Below are positions 4,604 to 58,485 of a stretch of DNA of 64,000 bases, one piece after another. This DNA comes from a virus. Where the stretch lies: positions 124,001-188,000 of the IMG/VR virus record IMGVR_UViG_3300013104_000001; one strand, written 5' to 3'. Each line of letters opens with the position of its first letter. Positions within the stretch are counted from its first letter, which is position 1. A program made the position numbers and the translations under genes. Under the pieces are notes generated by a model, which saw only the letters and a program-made list of their open reading frames with translations, ran no database searches and was not told the DNA's origin.

Positions 4604-5995
4604 ATGTCAATCTTGTCATTCGGCGAGTATGTTGAGAAGTCACGCCCTATTCGTCCGTTTCTGAATATTGGCGCTGGCTTTGACATACCAACCGGAAGCT
4701 ACCGTTTAGGTAAGCACGGTGAATCTATTCTTAATGGTGGTCTTGCTCCCTTTATTGCTATCGTGGGTAAAGGCAACACCTTTAAGACAGCGATCGGTTG
4801 TTTTATGCTAACCCGCGTACTGGAGCGCTACAATAACTCTAACGCCCTGCACTACGACACCGAGTGTACTTTCAGTCCTGAGCGTTTAATCAGTCTGACC
4901 AACCGCCTGGGTCCTGACGCAGCGCTGGAGTGGTTAGAGAACGAACGTGTGTATCTGACCGATGACTCTGTCATTAAAGGTAACCAGTGGTTTAAAAACT
5001 CTGTTCAACTTTATGCAGAAGCGAAAGGTAAAGGTAAGACCGGTACCCTGCCGTTTGTTGATAAAGACGGCAATCTGATCAAGCACCCATACCCAACCGT
5101 CAACTTCGGCGACTCCATGTCTGAGATGAAATTCAACGACCTGGAAAAGAACTACGCCAAGATGGAGATCGGCCAGGGTGAAATGCAGACCGAAGCCATG
5201 CGTGTGTCAAACGCCAAACGCATGTTAATCGAGAAGACACAAGGTTACGCCAACGCCGGTGGCCTGTATGTGATCATGACTGCGCACTTGGGCAAAGAAC
5301 TCAACCTTGATGGTAAACCACAAGAGAAGAAAACCACCTTCATGAAACAAGGTGACAAGATCTCTAAGGTACCTTCACAGATTCTGTCTCTGCCAAACAA
5401 CGTCTGGGAAATCTCAACCGGTACACAGCTCATTGATAAGAACACCAAAGAGTGGATGTATCCAAAAGCAGGTCGTGATGATGTGGATACCAACGGTAAC
5501 CCAGATCTGATCACCCTGGTTGCGAAGAACCTGCGCGGTAAGAACGGTCCTTCTGGTGTGCCGTGGGAATTTGTGATGTCTCAGTCTGAAGGCCTGCTGC
5601 CACATCTGACCGAGTTCCATTACATCAAGAACGCCGGTCGTTATGGTCTGGGTGGTAATGACCGTAATTACTATGTTGAGTTATGCCCTGATGTGAAACT
5701 GCAGCGTACGCAGGTCCGTGGTAAGATCGATGAAACACCAGAGCTGCAACGCGCCCTGGAGATCACCATGGAAATGTGTCAGATGCGTTTCCTCTGGCAT
5801 ACCCGCGATCCGAAGTACAACATGACTCCAGAAGAACTGCGTGTTGGCCTGGAGAAGAAAGGGTACAAATGGGAGCAGTTACTTAACACCCGTGGGTTCT
5901 GGACTTATGAAGAAGATAATCATCCATTACCATTCTTAAGCACAATGGACTTACTCCGCATGTATCATGATGAGTACCGCCCATACTGGCTGTAA
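4604..5995 (+). CDS. RecA/UvsX-like recombinase ATPase
   Basis: The 463-residue product has a Walker A loop, IVGKGNTFKTAIG (about residues 63-75), of the GxxxxFKT type seen in phage RecA/UvsX relatives. A likely Walker B strand lies at GGLYVIMTAHLG (about residues 222-233), and the usual RecA-core acidic residues follow strand 2 (HYDTECTFSPER). RecA-family proteins polymerise on single-stranded DNA and drive strand exchange in recombination-dependent replication. It is longer than bacterial RecA (about 350), with a ~130-residue C-terminal region after the core. The start is supported by AAAAAGGA 10 bases upstream. Upstream 80 bases are divergent with the 3724 gene and hold an AT-rich segment likely to contain its promoter. 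A GC hairpin closes the unit. Confidence 0.85.
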   Translation: MSILSFGEYVEKSRPIRPFLNIGAGFDIPTGSYRLGKHGESILNGGLAPFIAIVGKGNTFKTAIGCFMLTRVLERYNNSNALHYDTECTFSPERLISLTNRLGPDAALEWLENERVYLTDDSVIKGNQWFKNSVQLYAEAKGKGKTGTLPFVDKDGNLIKHPYPTVNFGDSMSEMKFNDLEKNYAKMEIGQGEMQTEAMRVSNAKRMLIEKTQGYANAGGLYVIMTAHLGKELNLDGKPQEKKTTFMKQGDKISKVPSQILSLPNNVWEISTGTQLIDKNTKEWMYPKAGRDDVDTNGNPDLITLVAKNLRGKNGPSGVPWEFVMSQSEGLLPHLTEFHYIKNAGRYGLGGNDRNYYVELCPDVKLQRTQVRGKIDETPELQRALEITMEMCQMRFLWHTRDPKYNMTPEELRVGLEKKGYKWEQLLNTRGFWTYEEDNHPLPFLSTMDLLRMYHDEYRPYWL

Positions 5996-6009: not shown

Positions 6010-6032
6010 AGGAGGGGTTTCCCCTCCTCTTT
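6010..6032 (+). terminator. Terminator after RecA-like gene
   Basis: An 8-bp stem (AGGAGGGG / CCCCTCCT, loop TTT; 6010-6028) is followed by CTTTATACCG, a variant of the TTTATGCCG flank seen after other terminators in this window. Confidence 0.8.
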
Positions 6033-6072
6033 ATACCGTCAGTAGAGGGAACTAAGCGAATAGGAAAGCAGT

Positions 6073-6492
6073 ATGCTTAATAAAGAAATACGCATTGTCG
6101 TAGCGTCTGTACGAGGCTTCGCAGATGTTGAGCGTTTAAAACTGACTATTGACGGTCTCCTCAAGGATATTTACGAGATGAACGAAGGTCTCGATGATGA
6201 GGATGATGAACTGATTACTGACAAGAAGATCGTGTTTATGATCAATGGCGAGGGGAGAACCGCTGCGGATATTCTGCCAGCGCTTGCCATGGAGCGTAAC
6301 ATCGAAGTGGAAGTACTCAAAGTCGATTGGTCAAAAGGTAAGAAAGCCTTTTTTGATAACTGTGCCGTTTTAGGCTCAAAGTCAACACACGCTATTATTT
6401 TCACGGACAGCAAAGATGACGGGATGCAGACACTGATTAAATCATGTCTCGACGCCGGGTCTCGTGTTCGTAGTTATAGCGCCTCTATCTAA
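6073..6492 (+). CDS. SLOG-type (YspA/DUF2493-like) nucleotide-binding protein
   Basis: The 139-residue product follows the order of YspA-like SLOG domains. The first strand and loop are IRIVVASVRGF, followed by a helix and a second strand with a loop, FMINGEGRTAADILPALAMERNIEVEV. Then come the DWSKGKKAFFDN segment and IIFTDSKDDGMQTLI near the end. SLOG proteins bind nucleotides and NAD-related ligands, and many sit in defence or counter-defence loci. The usual G-x-RN motif after the Trp is degraded here (FFDNCAVL), so binding specificity may have changed. GGAAAGCAGT precedes the ATG. It opens a tight rightward operon that includes a macro domain and a second, intact YspA-like domain at 7306. 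Confidence 0.65.
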   Translation: MLNKEIRIVVASVRGFADVERLKLTIDGLLKDIYEMNEGLDDEDDELITDKKIVFMINGEGRTAADILPALAMERNIEVEVLKVDWSKGKKAFFDNCAVLGSKSTHAIIFTDSKDDGMQTLIKSCLDAGSRVRSYSASI

Positions 6493-6501
6493 GGTGTAAT
6501 C

Positions 6502-6945
6502 ATGATAGCCTCTGAAGCCAACGTCGGTATACTTGATATTAATGTCACCCACGTCATATGCACAGTTAATTGCGAAGGGCATATGGGTCGTGGCATCGCC
6601 TTGTATCTACGTAAATGTATTCCGGGGCTATACGATCGTTATAACGAACTTTGCAAACTTAAGCTGTTAACGGTGGATAAACTTTGGATCTACCGTTCGG
6701 CACCAAAACAGATCCTCTGCTTTCCAACGAAAGACAAGACCTGGGAAGACAGTCGTATCGAATGGATCGAGGCTAATCTGATTAAGCTTCGAAACACGTA
6801 TAAAGAGAAAGGCATTCGCTCTGTGGCAATGCCTCCTCTGGGGTGTGGAAACGGTAACTTAAAATGGGATGAGGTGCGAAGCCTCATTTATGCCATCTTG
6901 GGCGATTGTGACCTGGAAGTCCACATTTGTTTAGGTAGAAAGTAA
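6502..6945 (+). CDS. Macro domain protein, DarG-like
   Basis: The 147-residue protein is a stand-alone macro domain. Readable landmarks are THVICTVNCEGHMGRGIAL (residues about 14-32), the FPTKDKTWEDS segment and MPPLGCGNGNLKW. This arrangement (VNC.G.MG+GIA, FPTK..W, PPLGCG.G.L.W) is that of the DarG branch of macro domains, which remove ADP-ribose from thymidine in DNA and neutralise DarT toxins. ADP-ribosyl hydrolase activity is inferred from family membership. The gene sits nine bases after the SLOG gene and is probably in one transcript with the NADAR fusion at 7306. An anti-DarTG role during infection is a reasonable hypothesis, not shown. It could instead act in NAD metabolism. Confidence 0.88.
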   Translation: MIASEANVGILDINVTHVICTVNCEGHMGRGIALYLRKCIPGLYDRYNELCKLKLLTVDKLWIYRSAPKQILCFPTKDKTWEDSRIEWIEANLIKLRNTYKEKGIRSVAMPPLGCGNGNLKWDEVRSLIYAILGDCDLEVHICLGRK

Positions 6946-6959
6946 ATGAGGGAATTATC

Positions 6960-7313
6960 ATGAATACACTGGTTTTCTTGTATGTACTGGGCAGTATTTA
7001 TACAGTCGATGTCAAACCGATGCCTGATTACAAAACCTGTCGTGCCGCACAAGCTGTACTCGAAAAGGCTACGGCTGAGCAGAAATATAACGACGGACCT
7101 AATAAGACCGAGTGTTATATCGTCGATGAGAGTAAAGGCGGGTTTGTTGTCATTAGTGGTCGTGATCTTGAATTGCAGCGTCAGAGTGCCGAACTCGATC
7201 GATTGTCACGTGAGACTACAGTTAAGCTTACTCATCAGGTTGAAGTAAACGATCCTTCTAAGTCGGTCAAGTTACAACAGTTCTTGAAAGACCAGGAGAA
7301 CGCACATGAGTGA
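6960..7313 (+). CDS. Small protein with hydrophobic N terminus, unknown function
   Basis: The 117-residue product starts with a short hydrophobic stretch (NTLVFLYVLGSIYTV) that lacks positive residues before it, so it could be a weak signal/anchor or a buried strand. Cysteines at 27 and 52 could pair if it is exported. The C-terminal half is a charged helix with heptad-like spacing. GAGGGAATTATC precedes the ATG, and the gene overlaps the next one by eight bases, implying translational coupling with the NADAR fusion. Not recognised. Confidence 0.7.
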   Translation: MNTLVFLYVLGSIYTVDVKPMPDYKTCRAAQAVLEKATAEQKYNDGPNKTECYIVDESKGGFVVISGRDLELQRQSAELDRLSRETTVKLTHQVEVNDPSKSVKLQQFLKDQENAHE

Positions 7314-8181
7314 TGCTCGCGTAGTACCCGATCCGGCCAAGGACGGGGTTACCCACATCAACATTTATACCAAGGGGATGACTTGGCTTGGACAGCAGTT
7401 ATCCAACATGTCGTACTACAGCTTCGCCCATCCTAAACACGGGGTGTTCGGATCACTGGAGGCGTATTGGTATTGGTTAGCAACTGGTCAGCAGCACGAA
7501 GAACTCCGTAACCTGGCAGGTTTTAAAGCAAAGCTTGTTGGTAAACAGTTTGAACGTGTACCGGTGGATAACTTTGAAGAGCAGTTCAAGTTCGCCATGC
7601 AATTACGTTTAGAACAGAACCCGATCATTGCCAAAGCGCTGTCTGAATCACTGCTGCCGTTTGAGCACTATTTCTACTATAGTGGGAAAGTGGTCGATCA
7701 GTCAGATGCACATCGTTGGCAGCTCGACTTCTATGAACAATGGCGTAAAGATCATCCTGTTGAAGATCCATCGATTGCGCTTCTTATTTCCGGTTCTCGT
7801 AAAGAGAAGAACTACGAAAGCTTTAAGAAGATCGTAATGGATTACTTAGCGCCTTATCGTGAAAAGATTAAGGACAGCTACAAGATCGGGATTATCTCAG
7901 GGTTGGCGTGGGAAGGTCCAGATGACATGGCGATTCGTTTATGCCGTGAGGAAGGCTTCATGCTGATCGGTGTGCCAGCTAAATGGAATGAGCAAGGCAA
8001 GGCAGCGGGGATGATCCGTAATGGCGTGATGGGGCGCTTATGCACTCAGGCGTTGGTCTTCTGGGATGGTGAGTCACCAGGGACAAAAGGCCAGATTGAC
8101 TATTTGAAGAAAAATAATATAGACCATCTGGTTTATATTCACGGGCAACACGATCCCGAGTGGAAATCATCGGAACAATGA
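7306..8181 (+). CDS. NADAR-YspA (SLOG) fusion protein
   Basis: The 291-residue protein has two domains. Residues about 20-145 resemble NADAR (YbiA/DUF1768). Its segments are LSNMSYYSF and the signature-like GSLEAYWYW, then GFKAKLVGK, FKFAMQLRLEQNP and a closing SDAHRWQLDF. NADAR proteins act on ADP-ribosyl and riboflavin-type N-glycosidic bonds, and some reverse guanosine ADP-ribosylation. Residues about 158-280 are a YspA-like SLOG domain. Its landmarks are LISGSRKEKNYESF, IISGLAWEGPDDMAI, PAKWNEQGKAAGMIRN and FWDGESPGTKGQI, with the motifs intact. AGGAGAACGCAC precedes the ATG. The pairing with a macro-domain gene two genes upstream suggests ADP-ribose chemistry. The YspA part is certain; the NADAR part is more divergent. 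Confidence 0.75.
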   Translation: MSDARVVPDPAKDGVTHINIYTKGMTWLGQQLSNMSYYSFAHPKHGVFGSLEAYWYWLATGQQHEELRNLAGFKAKLVGKQFERVPVDNFEEQFKFAMQLRLEQNPIIAKALSESLLPFEHYFYYSGKVVDQSDAHRWQLDFYEQWRKDHPVEDPSIALLISGSRKEKNYESFKKIVMDYLAPYREKIKDSYKIGIISGLAWEGPDDMAIRLCREEGFMLIGVPAKWNEQGKAAGMIRNGVMGRLCTQALVFWDGESPGTKGQIDYLKKNNIDHLVYIHGQHDPEWKSSEQ

Positions 8182-8193
8182 GAGGGAGTCATC

Positions 8194-8478
8194 ATGTCAA
8201 CATTGCAGCTCGCGGTTAATAGCGAATACTTTGATGCCATGAAAGATGGGTCAAAACCGGAAGAGTATCGTTTGGTTAATAACTACTGGACCAAGCGTTT
8301 ACTTAACCGGGATTACGATCGTCTGGTGATTACCAAAGGTTATCCAAATCGCGCCGATACATCACGGCGCATTGAGGTGCCTTATAATGGCTATCAAATA
8401 AAAACCATTACTCATCCTCACTTCGGTGATCAGCCCGTGAATGTTTTCGCCATTAAAGTAAATCTGGAGAAACCATGA
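8194..8478 (+). CDS. ASCH-like domain protein
   Basis: The 94-residue product has the layout of compact phage ASCH proteins. It opens with LAVNSEYFDAMKDGSKPEEYRL, where YFDAxKxGxKxEEYR is the family's opening signature. Next is a NNYWTKRL segment and then a strand, DRLVITKGYP. It ends with PYNGYQIKTITHP and VFAIKV. ASCH domains have a PUA-like fold and bind RNA or modified nucleobases; one family member is an N4-acetylcytidine amidohydrolase. The cellular role here is unknown. It lies in the same operon as the macro and NADAR genes and overlaps the RNA polymerase beta fragment by four bases (ATGA). Confidence 0.75.
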   Translation: MSTLQLAVNSEYFDAMKDGSKPEEYRLVNNYWTKRLLNRDYDRLVITKGYPNRADTSRRIEVPYNGYQIKTITHPHFGDQPVNVFAIKVNLEKP

Positions 8479-9149
8479 ACGCAGCACGCCAGCAAGTCCA
8501 GGAGTTCATCCTGACTTCTATTGATGAAATCATGCCCGGTTCTAAAAACCGGGATATTTACGTAGACTTCTTTGCCCGTCAATCCGACGAGGCATTTGAA
8601 GCACTGATGCAGCGCATGGAAGAGGATGAAGAGATCTTTCCGTTCTACCATCCTAATTTCACCGGGAAGGTGATCGATGTGGAGCGTGTGATTGGGTTGA
8701 TTGAGAAACACGGCGATACCATTATGGAACAGCTGTATGACATCGATCCAGAAACCGGTCTACAGTATCTGACACCACTTAAGTATCCGGTGCTGTTATT
8801 GCCACTGCGTATTCAGCAGCAGAAGCTGCAGAAGAAAATGTCAGTGCCAAAAGACAACAATCACATCGATGACCTGACCAACCAGCCAACGACCGAATCC
8901 AAGGGCGCATCACTCTCATACCCAGAAGTACAGATCCTGTATGCAATGGGCGGTGATAAGATCCTGGAAGAGACCATGAAGGTTCGTGGTGGCGATGAGA
9001 AAGCTTTCCGTGATTATAACAATGCCATTATTGCAGACGGCGGCGTGACCATCGGAGCGATCAGTTCAAGTAAAACCAAAGTTAAATCGACTCTGACGGT
9101 ACAGACTATTCTAGAGGCGATGCACTTGAGCAACAACCTGGCTAAATAA
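8475..9149 (+). CDS. Virion RNA polymerase beta, C-terminal fragment
   Basis: The last ~110 residues of this 224-residue protein line up with the C-terminal end of bacterial RNA polymerase beta. QQQKLQKKMS corresponds to the VDDKMHARS helix, NQPTTESKGASLSYPEVQILYAMGG to the TQQPLGG.....GEMEVWALEAYGA segment, and ILEETMKVRGGD to LQEMLTVKSDD. A final helix ends near TILEAMHLSNNL. The first ~100 residues are phage-specific. In phiKZ the virion polymerase beta is split between gp178 and gp149, and this would be the gp149 counterpart. The other half is at 25308. The gene is translationally coupled to the ASCH gene by an ATGA overlap. Confidence 0.82.
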   Translation: MNAARQQVQEFILTSIDEIMPGSKNRDIYVDFFARQSDEAFEALMQRMEEDEEIFPFYHPNFTGKVIDVERVIGLIEKHGDTIMEQLYDIDPETGLQYLTPLKYPVLLLPLRIQQQKLQKKMSVPKDNNHIDDLTNQPTTESKGASLSYPEVQILYAMGGDKILEETMKVRGGDEKAFRDYNNAIIADGGVTIGAISSSKTKVKSTLTVQTILEAMHLSNNLAK

Positions 9150-13169: not shown

Positions 13170-13856
13170 TTATTGTACCAATTCCAAACACGGTCGCCAA
13201 GCTTGGTTACCAGTGGTGGTATAATCGTTACCACCTACTTTAGTAAATGCCTGACCGGCACTTTTTACCGAATAGTACTGAGTTGAACCGATGGTACATA
13301 TCTGGCCCGACAGCGTACCGTATGAGTTATGCCCTAAATCAGCAACGCTGTAATGCGCCCACTTATCACCTTCTTGAGATGCAGGCAGGGTGCCATCATC
13401 CCAAATGTTGTACATAAGACGATTCCACTCCGACCCATGTGACATGACTGGATCGACCCCGCCGTCGTACGCTGCTGGCGATACCTTCTGAACGGTCAGG
13501 TTCCGTACCCGATAAACCTTACCAGCTATAGTAATAGTTTTCTGGCCGTCAACGACTTTTGCGCTATCTATGTTACTACGACTAACTCCTGTTCTAATTG
13601 GTTTCTTAGCAACATATAAAACCTTTCCGTCGATCAGAAACTTTAACCACGGAAAAGTATCGGCGCCAGAGATTGCCGTACCGTAGTTAGCCATCCCTAC
13701 AGCGCTACTCAAAGTAGAGGCTTTAATGAAATCCTGGCTCTGGACCTCTCCATAAAAACCAGTATATCTTGTTGGGTCATTAGGTGTTTCATAATAACCA
13801 ATCAATGCATCGCCCGGTGCAGTCGGTCTACGACCTACCATTAACAATTCTAACAT
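13170..13856 (-). CDS. C-type-lectin-like virion protein, paralogue A
   Basis: The start at 13856 (MLELLMVGRR) is chosen because a perfect AGGAGG lies six bases upstream. The 228-residue product aligns along its whole length with its neighbour at 13962. Shared landmarks are the MLE.L.VG start, GFYGEV, WLKFL.DGK.L.VA, a central GSEWNRLMY and the C-terminal WRPxLELV. The last third (SVKSAGQAFTKV...GNQAWRPCLELV) resembles the C-type-lectin/formylglycine-enzyme-like fold that many phages use to display ligand-binding loops. A receptor-binding or tail-decoration role is inferred. Differences between the two copies cluster in the loop-like segments. Confidence 0.7.
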   Translation of the reverse strand: MLELLMVGRRPTAPGDALIGYYETPNDPTRYTGFYGEVQSQDFIKASTLSSAVGMANYGTAISGADTFPWLKFLIDGKVLYVAKKPIRTGVSRSNIDSAKVVDGQKTITIAGKVYRVRNLTVQKVSPAAYDGGVDPVMSHGSEWNRLMYNIWDDGTLPASQEGDKWAHYSVADLGHNSYGTLSGQICTIGSTQYYSVKSAGQAFTKVGGNDYTTTGNQAWRPCLELVQ

Positions 13857-13906
13857 CAGACCTCCTGACAAGAGTAATTATAGAATCGCGCTAAACTTTA
13901 TTTAAA

Positions 13907-13961: not shown

Positions 13962-14669
13962 TTAAGCTTTACCTACCAGCTCTAATACCGGGCGCCAACC
14001 ACTACGGGTTTCTGATGTGCCGTTGTATAACTGATTAATAGCATTGTAATTACCGTAGCTACCACCACGAACAATGCGGTAACTTCCTGGGTTACCAGTG
14101 TAATAAGATATTTCCTGGCAAATCGTTTGCGAGGCGATATTACTGTCTATCCCAATATCCACGGATGAGAGGTTATCCCATTTAATCCCGTCTTCAACTT
14201 CACACAGACTGATTTCGGAGTTGGCTAGCACCGGATACATTAGTCGGTTCCATTCTGAACCGGCAATGGTCTTATTAGGGTCATTATTAATGACGGTGCC
14301 GCTAACCAAACGTAGGTTATAGAGGTAGCCATTAATAGTCACCTGTTTGCTGGTCATTGCTATCCCGCAGTTATTGGGTGATATACTGTTTCTAAAGCAG
14401 GCTTGTGCTACAAACAGAATTTTCCCATCACAAAGAAACTTCAACCACCCTTTATCGGCATTGCCAGCAATGGCCGACCCACCACTAATCCCACTCGTAT
14501 TATAAAGTGCCAGACCGGTAATGAGATCTGTTGCCGCTACCCGCCCAAAATATCCGGCTGTTTGATCAGCATTACGTGAATAGGAGAATAATAAATCTTG
14601 TCCACCAGGACCAAGTTCAGAGGGGATTTCTACTTTCTTTTTACCGCCCACAAATAACATCTCTAACAT
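13962..14669 (-). CDS. C-type-lectin-like virion protein, paralogue B
   Basis: The 235-residue product begins MLEMLFVGGKKK and is a diverged duplicate of the 13170 protein, sharing GYFGRV, GWLKFLCDGKILFVAQ, GSEWNRLMYPV and the C-terminal GWRPVLELVG. The segment IVRGGSYGNYNAINQLYN before the terminal WRP motif is typical of the variable face of C-type-lectin-like folds (RGGSY...R.GWRP). The likely role is host-surface binding on the tail or head. No reverse transcriptase or template repeat for diversification is visible in the window. GGGGTAAGTGA precedes the ATG. Confidence 0.72.
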   Translation of the reverse strand: MLEMLFVGGKKKVEIPSELGPGGQDLLFSYSRNADQTAGYFGRVAATDLITGLALYNTSGISGGSAIAGNADKGWLKFLCDGKILFVAQACFRNSISPNNCGIAMTSKQVTINGYLYNLRLVSGTVINNDPNKTIAGSEWNRLMYPVLANSEISLCEVEDGIKWDNLSSVDIGIDSNIASQTICQEISYYTGNPGSYRIVRGGSYGNYNAINQLYNGTSETRSGWRPVLELVGKA

Positions 14670-56938: not shown

Positions 56939-57583
56939 ATGTACGAACGCATCAATCTGATTACACTGAACGAACTCTCTGTCTATTCTGAAGTTCAGCG
57001 TGCGACAGACAACCGAACAATTAAATCAACTTCAGTCTCTGTGTACTGGGGTGATAAGCTCTTAGCGAAGACGCCTAAGATGACCAGTGCTATGGATTAC
57101 GCCTACATCGGTGTGTTGTTGTGGAATCCGAAGTTCATGGCATGGATGACAGCTGAGATCCGTAAGAACATTATCGACACGTTTCGTAGTGCGGACTTCA
57201 TCCTAGGGATCAAGCTTAACCCAGGTCGTGTCTTGACCGATGGAATCACCTACCCGTACTTGGGTAAAGAAACCCACTCTTGCGTATCAATCCAGTTGAA
57301 ATGTCAGTTACTGGGATACGAACACAACAAAGTGGATATGACTGGTCAACTACGTATGACCACAGAGATCTTGTCTGGTGATCATGTGGTGTCCGATACA
57401 CGTGTCTATGGTCCGATGGAGACACCAGTGTTACCCGAACTGGATGCGTTGTTAGCGGTTGCCTATAAAGAGATCCCTGAGGATGAGGTCAGACTAACCA
57501 TCCGTGATCCTGACACAGGGCTTCCGCGTCATGACGTGCCAATCAACCCTGAGACAAAGTTACCTCTCTACGGTAACCGTTAA
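56939..57583 (+). CDS. Hypothetical protein, 215 residues
   Basis: ATG at 56939 (MYERINLITLNELSVYSE) is preferred: AGAGG lies at the right distance, whereas the ATG at 56933 would be only two bases from it. The product is alpha/beta with a Trp/Met-rich helix (WNPKFMAWMTAEIRKNI) and a Pro-rich C-terminal tail (GLPRHDVPINPETKLPLYG). No domain is recognised. Confidence 0.7.
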   Translation: MYERINLITLNELSVYSEVQRATDNRTIKSTSVSVYWGDKLLAKTPKMTSAMDYAYIGVLLWNPKFMAWMTAEIRKNIIDTFRSADFILGIKLNPGRVLTDGITYPYLGKETHSCVSIQLKCQLLGYEHNKVDMTGQLRMTTEILSGDHVVSDTRVYGPMETPVLPELDALLAVAYKEIPEDEVRLTIRDPDTGLPRHDVPINPETKLPLYGNR

Positions 57584-57592
57584 CTAGCCACT

Positions 57593-57626
57593 GGGAGGCT
57601 TCGGCCTCCCTTTATGCCGGTCTGTA
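57593..57626 (+). terminator. Terminator with UUCG tetraloop
   Basis: A 7-bp stem, GGGAGGC / GCCTCCC, closes TTCG (57593-57610), followed by TTTATGCCGGTCTGTATTTT. The downstream string is nearly identical to that at 34641. Confidence 0.88.
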
Positions 57627-57741
57627 TTTTAAAACTAAGTTGACTAAGCTTATGAAAGAAATAAAATCTTTCACCCGAGCTAAGGGTAACGTAGAGGTTT
57701 TAGATATATGCCGATTAAATTAATAAGAGAGAAAACAATCA

Positions 57742-58485
57742 ATGGATAAAATCGCTTATATTCAAGAAGATGTCCGAGGGTACGTTTATTGGGAATCTAA
57801 TCTGCTACGTCAGTATCTTGAGCATCGTCATCCTGATGTCATTATTATCTCGTTATCTCGTGACGAACTCTTTCGAACACAGGACCAGGGTATCACCCCA
57901 TTTGCGGTATCGGGTAATTTCGATTTCGTTGATCGTCTCTTAGCTATGTCCAATAATCCACATCCTACCTTACTGCCTGACTACCCTGAAGAGCTCCAAG
58001 GGTACCTGCATCGCAAGGTAGAGTCCGGTACGTTAAGGGATCTGACGTTAGAACGCTGTCCGGTGTTTGTTAAACCTAAATACCAGAAACTCTTTACTGG
58101 GTTTGTTTGTGATGATCCTTTTGATTATCGGTTTAAATCTCATCGGGTCAATAACAACGAACCGTTATGGTTTAGTGAAGTGGTGAACTGGGTGTCTGAA
58201 TGGCGTGTGTATGTAGTCAATGGTAAAATTGGTTACATGTCTCATTACAACGGATTACGGGCTGCTAAACCTCGACTGAAACGTGTGGAGGAGATGATCT
58301 CTAAACTATCTGCACAGAACTACGTAATGGATATTGGTGTCTTAAGCAATGGCCGAGCTGCATTGATCGAAGTCAATGATGGCGTTGCGGTGGGCGCGTA
58401 TGAGGGTTGCCATGCAAACGTGTATGGCGAACTGTTGGTTAACCGGTGGCAGGAAATAATGAAGGAGCGAGACAGCTATGTCTAA
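57742..58485 (+). CDS. ATP-grasp domain enzyme
   Basis: The 247-residue product has ATP-grasp landmarks in order: a nucleotide-binding Lys in CPVFVKPKYQKLFTG, the EWRVYVVNGKIGYMS strand pair, and the metal-binding VMDIGVLSNGRAALIEVNDG (D, E and N). The family joins an acyl-phosphate intermediate to an amine or thiol. Compact members occur in phages, and the target is unknown here. The N-terminal ~60 residues form the pre-grasp domain. AGAGAGAAAACAATCA precedes the ATG. It is followed with 8-base overlaps by three small paralogous genes, which may be modified by or modify the same target. Confidence 0.82.
   Translation: MDKIAYIQEDVRGYVYWESNLLRQYLEHRHPDVIIISLSRDELFRTQDQGITPFAVSGNFDFVDRLLAMSNNPHPTLLPDYPEELQGYLHRKVESGTLRDLTLERCPVFVKPKYQKLFTGFVCDDPFDYRFKSHRVNNNEPLWFSEVVNWVSEWRVYVVNGKIGYMSHYNGLRAAKPRLKRVEEMISKLSAQNYVMDIGVLSNGRAALIEVNDGVAVGAYEGCHANVYGELLVNRWQEIMKERDSYV

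Follow-up and report, generated by a model that had tools for sequence, protein, structure and literature searches.

The 64,000-nucleotide stretch analysed here (the window) comprises bases 124,001-188,000 of the 287,406-base IMG/VR virus record IMGVR_UViG_3300013104_000001. It carries a module of three genes that encode a divergent SLOG protein (SLOG1), a macro domain protein resembling the antitoxin DarG, and a two-domain protein in which a NADAR domain is fused to another SLOG domain (NADAR-SLOG2). The module most likely strips the ADP-ribose tags or signals of bacterial anti-phage defences. Tentatively, we favour a reading in which this core forms a complex inside the nucleus of a nucleus-forming jumbo phage and removes ADP-ribose from nucleic acids there. 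An earlier note, made from the letters of the window, had already proposed a counter-defence role in ADP-ribose processing. The domain identities are confirmed here, and this is the best supported reading of the locus.

A conserved module of SLOG, macro and NADAR domains

The closest named relatives of the record are the Erwinia jumbo phages of the genus Agricanvirus (AH06, RAY and Ea35-70), followed by Salmonella phage SA002, Erwinia phages pEa_SNUABM_37 and pEa_SNUABM_48, and Proteus phage 10. The module genes are all on the plus strand and lie nearly end to end between uvsX and a gene for an RNA polymerase beta-subunit fragment (Table 1). The four open reading frames (ORFs) that the earlier note had placed here (starting at 6073, 6502, 7306 and 8194) have exactly the coordinates given to them and are near-contiguous. 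The 117-amino-acid ORF at 6960-7313 and the gene fusions of the relatives are not mentioned in that note.

A close relative of the macro domain is found in 21 of the 21 phage records that carry SLOG1, and NADAR-SLOG in 20 of them, which argues that the grouping of the genes is not due to chance. The macro gene stands directly behind SLOG1 in every SLOG1 record for which coordinates were compared, and SLOG1 is directly upstream in every relative locus that covers this flank. Macro, NADAR and SLOG2 form a single protein of about 430 amino acids behind SLOG1 in seven records (pEa_SNUABM_37, pEa_SNUABM_48, and the IMG/VR contigs L011, L012, L013, L015 and L016). The independent fused lineages are fewer than the records because L012/L013 and L015/L016 are close pairs. 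Proteus phage 10 has a macro-SLOG2 fusion without NADAR. Salmonella phage SA002 has a tandem partial duplicate, with macro-NADAR followed by the macro C-terminus joined to NADAR-SLOG (L003:4867-6743). These natural fusions indicate that the macro, NADAR and SLOG parts work together.

Purifying selection acts on SLOG1, macro and NADAR-SLOG2, with ratios of nonsynonymous to synonymous substitution rates (dN/dS) of 0.06-0.19 (0.04-0.19 when the ASCH-like gene is included). The core module consists of these three genes. The fused form is perhaps ancestral according to an unrooted, weakly supported tree of the relatives, made without L008, from which we claim no direction of fusion or fission.

No NUDIX partner was found, nor is there a second copy of NADAR or of the SLOG2 type in the record. 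A search for an ADP-ribosyltransferase (ART) of the phage's own with PF01129 gave no match, but this negative carries no information, as the control search matched nowhere either. Relatives in bacterial genomes amount to a single NADAR-only match, in a metagenome-assembled genome. A search of plasmids for the macro domain returned genes labelled 'macro domain-containing' from many genera, and the matches listed include neither Erwinia nor Pantoea.

The macro domain is an orphan DarG-like hydrolase

The macro protein matches Pfam PF01661 above the cut-off (E=4.5e-11) and the PADLOC model of DarG (E=4e-42). The match to the NCBIfam DarG model (E=4e-39) scores 134.8 bits, below the cut-off of 250, because it is limited to the macro part (profile positions 8-145 of 338 are aligned). 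The best solved structures are those of DarG itself, 5m3i (E=2.6e-23) and 5m31. The DarG-type assignment first made by reading the motifs is therefore well founded.

Loss of the ADP-ribose pocket had been named beforehand as a possible refutation, and the pocket motifs and catalytic lysine are intact. N23, GHMGRG (26-31), FPTK (74-77) and PLGCxNG are essentially fixed in ten macro relatives, with one neighbouring change of the I/V type in the GHMGRG region. K77 is aligned with the lysine of the DarG FPTK motif, the catalytic lysine, and is invariant across the clade. We equate it with K80 of DarG because K80 is the published catalytic residue (PMC11543638) and the crystal construct seems to carry a 10-residue tag.

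The DarT-binding C-terminal domain of DarG is absent from the 147-residue phage protein. DarT (PF14487) has no match anywhere in the 287-kb record, and a complete DarTG system in the phage was accordingly rejected. Both absences identify the protein as an orphan DarG-like hydrolase rather than a DarG antitoxin. DarG reverses the ADP-ribosylation of thymidine and of uracil (PMC13036486).

The NADAR domain is of the phage type

The NADAR models of Pfam (PF08719 and PF08010) do not match the protein encoded at 7306. However, PHROG 652 matches both this NADAR (5e-32) and gp30.3 of T4 (9e-51). A profile built from 28 phage relatives finds YbiA (2b3w) first (E=0.0022) and the NADAR 8bau second (E=0.15) among PDB structures. 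The AlphaFold2 (AF2) model of NADAR-SLOG2, with a predicted local distance difference test score (pLDDT) mostly above 90 in the NADAR half of the 291-residue protein, matches 8bau, a NADAR with bound ADP-ribose, at a Foldseek probability of 1.00 (template modelling score to the target 0.49 and E 0.011, with a two-domain query). The PHROG, profile and fold matches together identify the N-terminal half as NADAR. A failure of this assignment had been listed by the earlier note as another way in which its proposal could fall.

The catalytic glutamate E52 and the phage-type histidine H121 are invariant in 28 of 28 phage NADARs, T4 gp30.3 included. The glutamate is essential in NADARs, and in those of the phage type a histidine takes the place of the second acid (PMC11543638, PMC11125620). 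NADARs reverse guanosine ADP-ribosylation on DNA and RNA (PMC11543638, PMC11833690). T4 gp30.3 is the phage NADAR that has been tested, and it hydrolyses ADP-ribosylated guanosine in vitro (PMC11125620).

Two divergent SLOG domains of the YspA type

Two YspA-like SLOG domains had been predicted in the window, and both are supported by profile searches, with fold matches in addition for SLOG2. Both match PHROG 289 (Table 1) and each other in a profile alignment (hhalign probability 96.9%, E=1.4e-10). Their scores against Pfam YAcAr (PF10686) are 19.5 bits for SLOG2 and 18.9 bits for SLOG1, below the cut-off of 28.2, so that the YspA-type name is well supported without being a formal family assignment. 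The fold of SLOG2 matches those of DprA (3uqz and 4ljk) and of YspA at a Foldseek probability of 1.00, with many viral folds of the YspA/DUF2493 type among the matches, and the top viral fold match of the whole NADAR-SLOG2 model is the protein of RAY. The DprA family of Pfam has no match to NADAR-SLOG2 at E up to 1, and the likeness is at the level of the fold only.

The pocket motifs of SLOG2 (GxAxxGPD, PAxW...K.AGM(I/V)RN and DGxSxGTK) are kept across ten relatives. SLOG1 has lost part of this signature, for example the RN and GT motifs, and may be a regulatory partner. Its AF2 model is Rossmannoid with modest confidence (pLDDT 72.6), and the PDB matches are generic Rossmannoid/CARF folds that are not specific for SLOG. 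For these reasons the SLOG1 assignment is based on the profiles. In one relative locus (L008:5662-5868) the SLOG2 frame is broken near its end, either by a sequencing error or by a real frameshift.

A link to the phage nucleus

The record encodes a chimallin that is 79% identical to the chimallin of RAY, and the phage should therefore form a nucleus. NADAR-SLOG2 is 73% identical to its orthologue in RAY, gp153. A fusion of gp153 to green fluorescent protein (GFP) was among ten proteins that co-localised with the phage DNA and are likely to be inside the nucleus (PMC10299810). In that study gp153 is called 'DprA' and its position is interpreted in terms of recombination; gp150 (UvsX) is also nuclear (PMC10299810). 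The nuclear localisation of gp153 is easier to reconcile with a nucleic-acid substrate than with a signal in the cytosol.

Proposed mechanism and alternative explanations

In the mechanism that we propose, NADAR-SLOG2 would enter the phage nucleus, probably in a complex with the macro protein, given that close relatives have all three domains in a single chain. There ADP-ribose on thymine (or uracil) would be hydrolysed off by the DarG-like macro domain and ADP-ribose on guanine by the NADAR domain, in either case on phage DNA or nascent RNA. The ligand of the SLOG domains may be the nucleotide portion of the substrate or the freed ADP-ribose; alternatively, these domains may anchor the complex on the nucleic acid. 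The eraser complex would thereby undo an attack by DarT2, DarT1 or another enzyme of the ART type. The thymidine and guanosine ADP-ribosyl chemistries are established for homologues and are predicted here. That one imported macro-NADAR-SLOG complex erases both thymidine- and guanosine-linked ADP-ribose inside the nucleus is a narrower claim, which we hold to be less likely than not. If it is true, the shell does not keep host ADP-ribosyltransferases from phage DNA or nascent RNA, or else the phage has to clean DNA that was modified before the nucleus formed.

Several points weigh against an intranuclear eraser. The phage nucleus keeps out the DNA-targeting defences tested, namely restriction enzymes and Cas nucleases (PMC12908238), which argues against an anti-DarTG role, and host DarT would have to reach the phage DNA inside this compartment. 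The localisation of gp153 comes from a GFP fusion and covers gp153, not the macro protein. The analysis identified neither an ART target nor a host DarTG. Phage Macro, NADAR and SLOG proteins act mainly on small molecules in the view of Iyer et al. 2022 (PMC9503650). The gp30.3 of T4 failed to rescue E. coli from DarT1 (PMC11125620). In the window NADAR, A59 stands where the phosphate-coordinating lysine (K50 in Pn, K95 in C7) is expected, and K95 is essential in the NADAR of E. coli C7. This lysine is kept in 10 of the 28 phage NADARs, including that of T4, and lost in 18. Because so many phage relatives are without it, the lysine may not define the phage branch, and another residue could stand in for it. 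As for the nucleus, possible targets are nascent RNA, DNA exposed before the nucleus has formed, or small molecules that diffuse inwards.

A different view, which we consider unlikely yet worth weighing, has the SLOG and macro domains binding or cleaving soluble alarm molecules derived from NAD, so that abortive infection of the Thoeris type is not triggered. The targets would be 2'/3'cADPR (recognised by the SLOG domain of ThsA) or ADP-ribose, imidazole-adenine dinucleotide and His-ADP-ribose (recognised by the macro domain of ThsA), and NADAR would cut an N-glycosidic bond in such molecules. Iyer et al. 2022 proposed a role of this kind for phage SLOG/Macro/NADAR combinations (PMC9503650), and SLOG and macro sensors are used by two types of Thoeris effector respectively (PMC11204291). 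The retained pocket motifs of SLOG2 fit this view, and the jumbo phage phiKZ has a sponge for second messengers, Tad1 (PMC13282480). However, the NADAR-SLOG2 orthologue is nuclear whereas the signal acts in the cytosol, although small molecules might enter the nucleus. In addition, the closest match of the macro domain is the nucleic-acid hydrolase DarG and not ThsA, and SLOG2 matches profiles of the YspA type. The chimallin gene and the nuclear position of RAY gp153 lead us to favour the intranuclear eraser over clearance of soluble signals.

Housekeeping in RNA repair appears improbable. Here the module would clear ADP-ribose 1'',2''-cyclic phosphate, ADP-ribose-1''-phosphate or stray ADP-ribosylated RNA ends, all of them produced by the phage KptA (with RtcB) once host nucleases have cut tRNA. 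The record does encode a KptA/Tpt1 RNA 2'-phosphotransferase (85960-86463 of the record, E=1e-40; L070) and an RtcB RNA ligase (56951-58099, E=2e-128; L071), both outside the window, which are possibly an NAD-dependent RNA-repair pair. KptA is present in the Agricanvirus records listed and in AH06, and published macro enzymes are able to act on products of this kind and to remove ADP-ribose from phosphate ends. However, kptA lies about 45 kb and rtcB about 72 kb from the module, RtcB of RAY is cytoplasmic whereas gp153 is nuclear (PMC10299810), and KptA is detectable in at most one of SA002 and Proteus phage 10, which both have macro-SLOG parts. NADARs are published as inactive on phosphate-end ADP-ribose. 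An accessory role in recombination, with a DprA-like SLOG loading the neighbouring UvsX on single-stranded phage DNA and the NADAR and macro parts secondary, is a poor prospect as well. It would suit the annotation of gp153 and its nuclear position, shared with the UvsX gp150 (PMC10299810), the fold match of SLOG2 to DprA, and the position of uvsX, which adjoins the module on its upstream side in the compared relatives. Against it, SLOG2 matches YAcAr/YspA and not the DprA family of Pfam; DprA is a general match to the SLOG fold; a hairpin separates uvsX from the module; and the macro and NADAR fusion, both with conserved catalytic residues, is left unexplained. We give very little credence to an antitoxin mimic, in which macro or NADAR-SLOG2 would sequester a host ART toxin instead of erasing its marks. 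There is a precedent in AdfB of ICP1, which acts against DarT (PMC11481870), and A59 could mean that NADAR activity was lost and a binding role kept. However, the clade keeps E52, H121 and K77 without exception, and the macro protein lacks the C-terminal part by which DarG binds DarT.

Accessory genes and flanking features

Two further genes at the locus are dispensable add-ons to the module. The earlier note had counted an ASCH protein, encoded at 8194, in the same operon cassette. The gene exists, and its product shares 72-74% identity with P1, phage 21 and lambdoid phage proteins that RefSeq labels 'ASCH domain-containing'; however, Pfam ASCH has no match to it at E up to 1. Among the relatives the gene is found only in AH06 and L007, and is missing from the fused forms as well as from RAY and L008. 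ASCH as a part of the core was rejected because the gene comes and goes and is common to temperate phages. This sharing suggests transfer between very different phage groups.

The 117-amino-acid ORF between macro and NADAR-SLOG2 is present in AH06, L007 and L008 and absent from RAY and the fused forms, with counterparts at L007:4663-5004, L008:4663-5004 and L001:5355-5702. It is 38% identical to that of L007 at the amino-acid level, whereas the neighbouring genes are 89-94% identical. These proteins begin with the pattern M(x)TL(V/I/F)FLY(V/I)L. The product is possibly secreted or membrane-associated.

Table 1. Features of the module and its immediate flanks, in window positions
Feature	Position	Strand	Evidence
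UvsX/RecA-like recombinase, upstream gene	4604..5995	+	PHROG 97 E=1e-54; orthologue of RAY gp150
Perfect 8-bp hairpin between uvsX and SLOG1	6010..6028	+	Fold -14.5 kcal/mol, z -2.5
SLOG1, divergent YspA-like SLOG, 139 aa, first gene of the module	6073..6492	+	PHROG 289 E=2e-9; hhalign to SLOG2
DarG-like macro domain, 147 aa, orphan	6502..6945	+	PF01661; PADLOC and NCBIfam DarG; PDB 5m3i/5m31
117-aa ORF, fast-evolving insert between macro and NADAR-SLOG2	6960..7313	+	
NADAR-SLOG2, two-domain protein, 291 aa	7306..8181	+	PHROG 11222 E=3e-157; AF2 mean pLDDT 85.6
NADAR domain, residues 9-150, phage gp30.3 type	7330..7755	+	PHROG 652; alignment of 28 phage NADARs; YbiA 2b3w; Foldseek 8bau
SLOG2 domain, residues 155-285, YspA type	7768..8160	+	Alignment invariants; PHROG 289 E=2e-19; Foldseek DprA 3uqz/4ljk
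ASCH-like protein, 94 aa, roaming accessory gene	8194..8478	+	72-74% identity to RefSeq 'ASCH domain-containing' phage proteins
RNA polymerase beta-subunit fragment, 4-base overlap with ASCH	8475..9149	+	PHROG 3233 E=1e-93

The hairpin upstream of SLOG1 resembles a terminator or processing site with a weak T tract, and it is not listed by a scan for consensus terminators. Inverted repeats with altered yet pairing stems were seen by eye at the same position in L001-L005, L007 and L008, those of L007 and L008 having been folded computationally. Loci of the Agricanvirus type share a conserved string, TTATACCGTCAGTAGAGGGAA, 3' of the hairpin (6010-6072 in the window), which is possibly a promoter of a phage RNA polymerase. 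Elsewhere in the window, two paralogous-looking ORFs on the minus strand (13170-13871 and 13962-14669) both end in WRP(C/V)LELV and resemble tail-fibre or C-terminal display proteins.

Relationship to known systems

The module raises the question whether defences that ADP-ribosylate DNA or RNA can act on genomes inside the phage nucleus. According to a 2026 review, no anti-defence protein other than Tad1 has been described in jumbo phages (PMC13282480), and the module is a concrete second candidate beside it. The natural one-chain fusions are ready reagents in which both candidate erasers are contained in a single protein.

The macro protein shares its fold, its pocket motifs and the catalytic lysine (FPTK) with DarG of DarTG2 (5m3i and 5m31). 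In contrast to that antitoxin it is phage-borne, lacks the DarT-binding C-terminus and a DarT gene in the record, and is fused or linked to NADAR and SLOG. The NADAR domain is homologous to T4 gp30.3 (PF08010, PHROG 652), with the same catalytic glutamate and a histidine in place of the last-strand Glu/Asp. It differs from gp30.3 in its fusion to SLOG2, its macro partner and the alanine at the phosphate site where T4 has lysine. T4-like phages carry a NADAR eraser against DarTG1, AdfN, for which a literature search found nothing relevant. AdfB of ICP1 is likewise a phage factor against DarT, but it acts by binding DarT directly, unlike the mark-erasing module proposed here (PMC11481870).

The orthologue in Erwinia phage RAY is encoded in the same gene order after UvsX, in a locus that has neither the 117-amino-acid ORF nor the ASCH-like gene. 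The published name 'DprA' for gp153 misses its NADAR half, and we suggest that it be corrected to NADAR-SLOG. Adjoining Macro and YspA genes (gp212 and gp213) were noted in Pseudomonas phage pPa_SNUABM_DT01. Combinations of Macro, NADAR and SLOG in large phages, with a proposed role in counter-defence, were already published by Iyer et al. 2021/2022 (PMC7824862, PMC9503650). The architectures they describe combine the same three families in large phages, through gene fusion or as neighbours, and include tandem NADAR and Macro; soluble ADP-ribose derivatives are favoured as substrates, without activity or localisation having been shown. In contrast to the systems of their text, the module described here is a conserved SLOG1 followed by macro, NADAR and SLOG in chimallin phages, with a series of split and fused forms and a link to a nuclear protein. 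What appears to be new is this exact module with its split and fused series, the audit of its active sites, the chimallin context and the connection to the localised protein of RAY.

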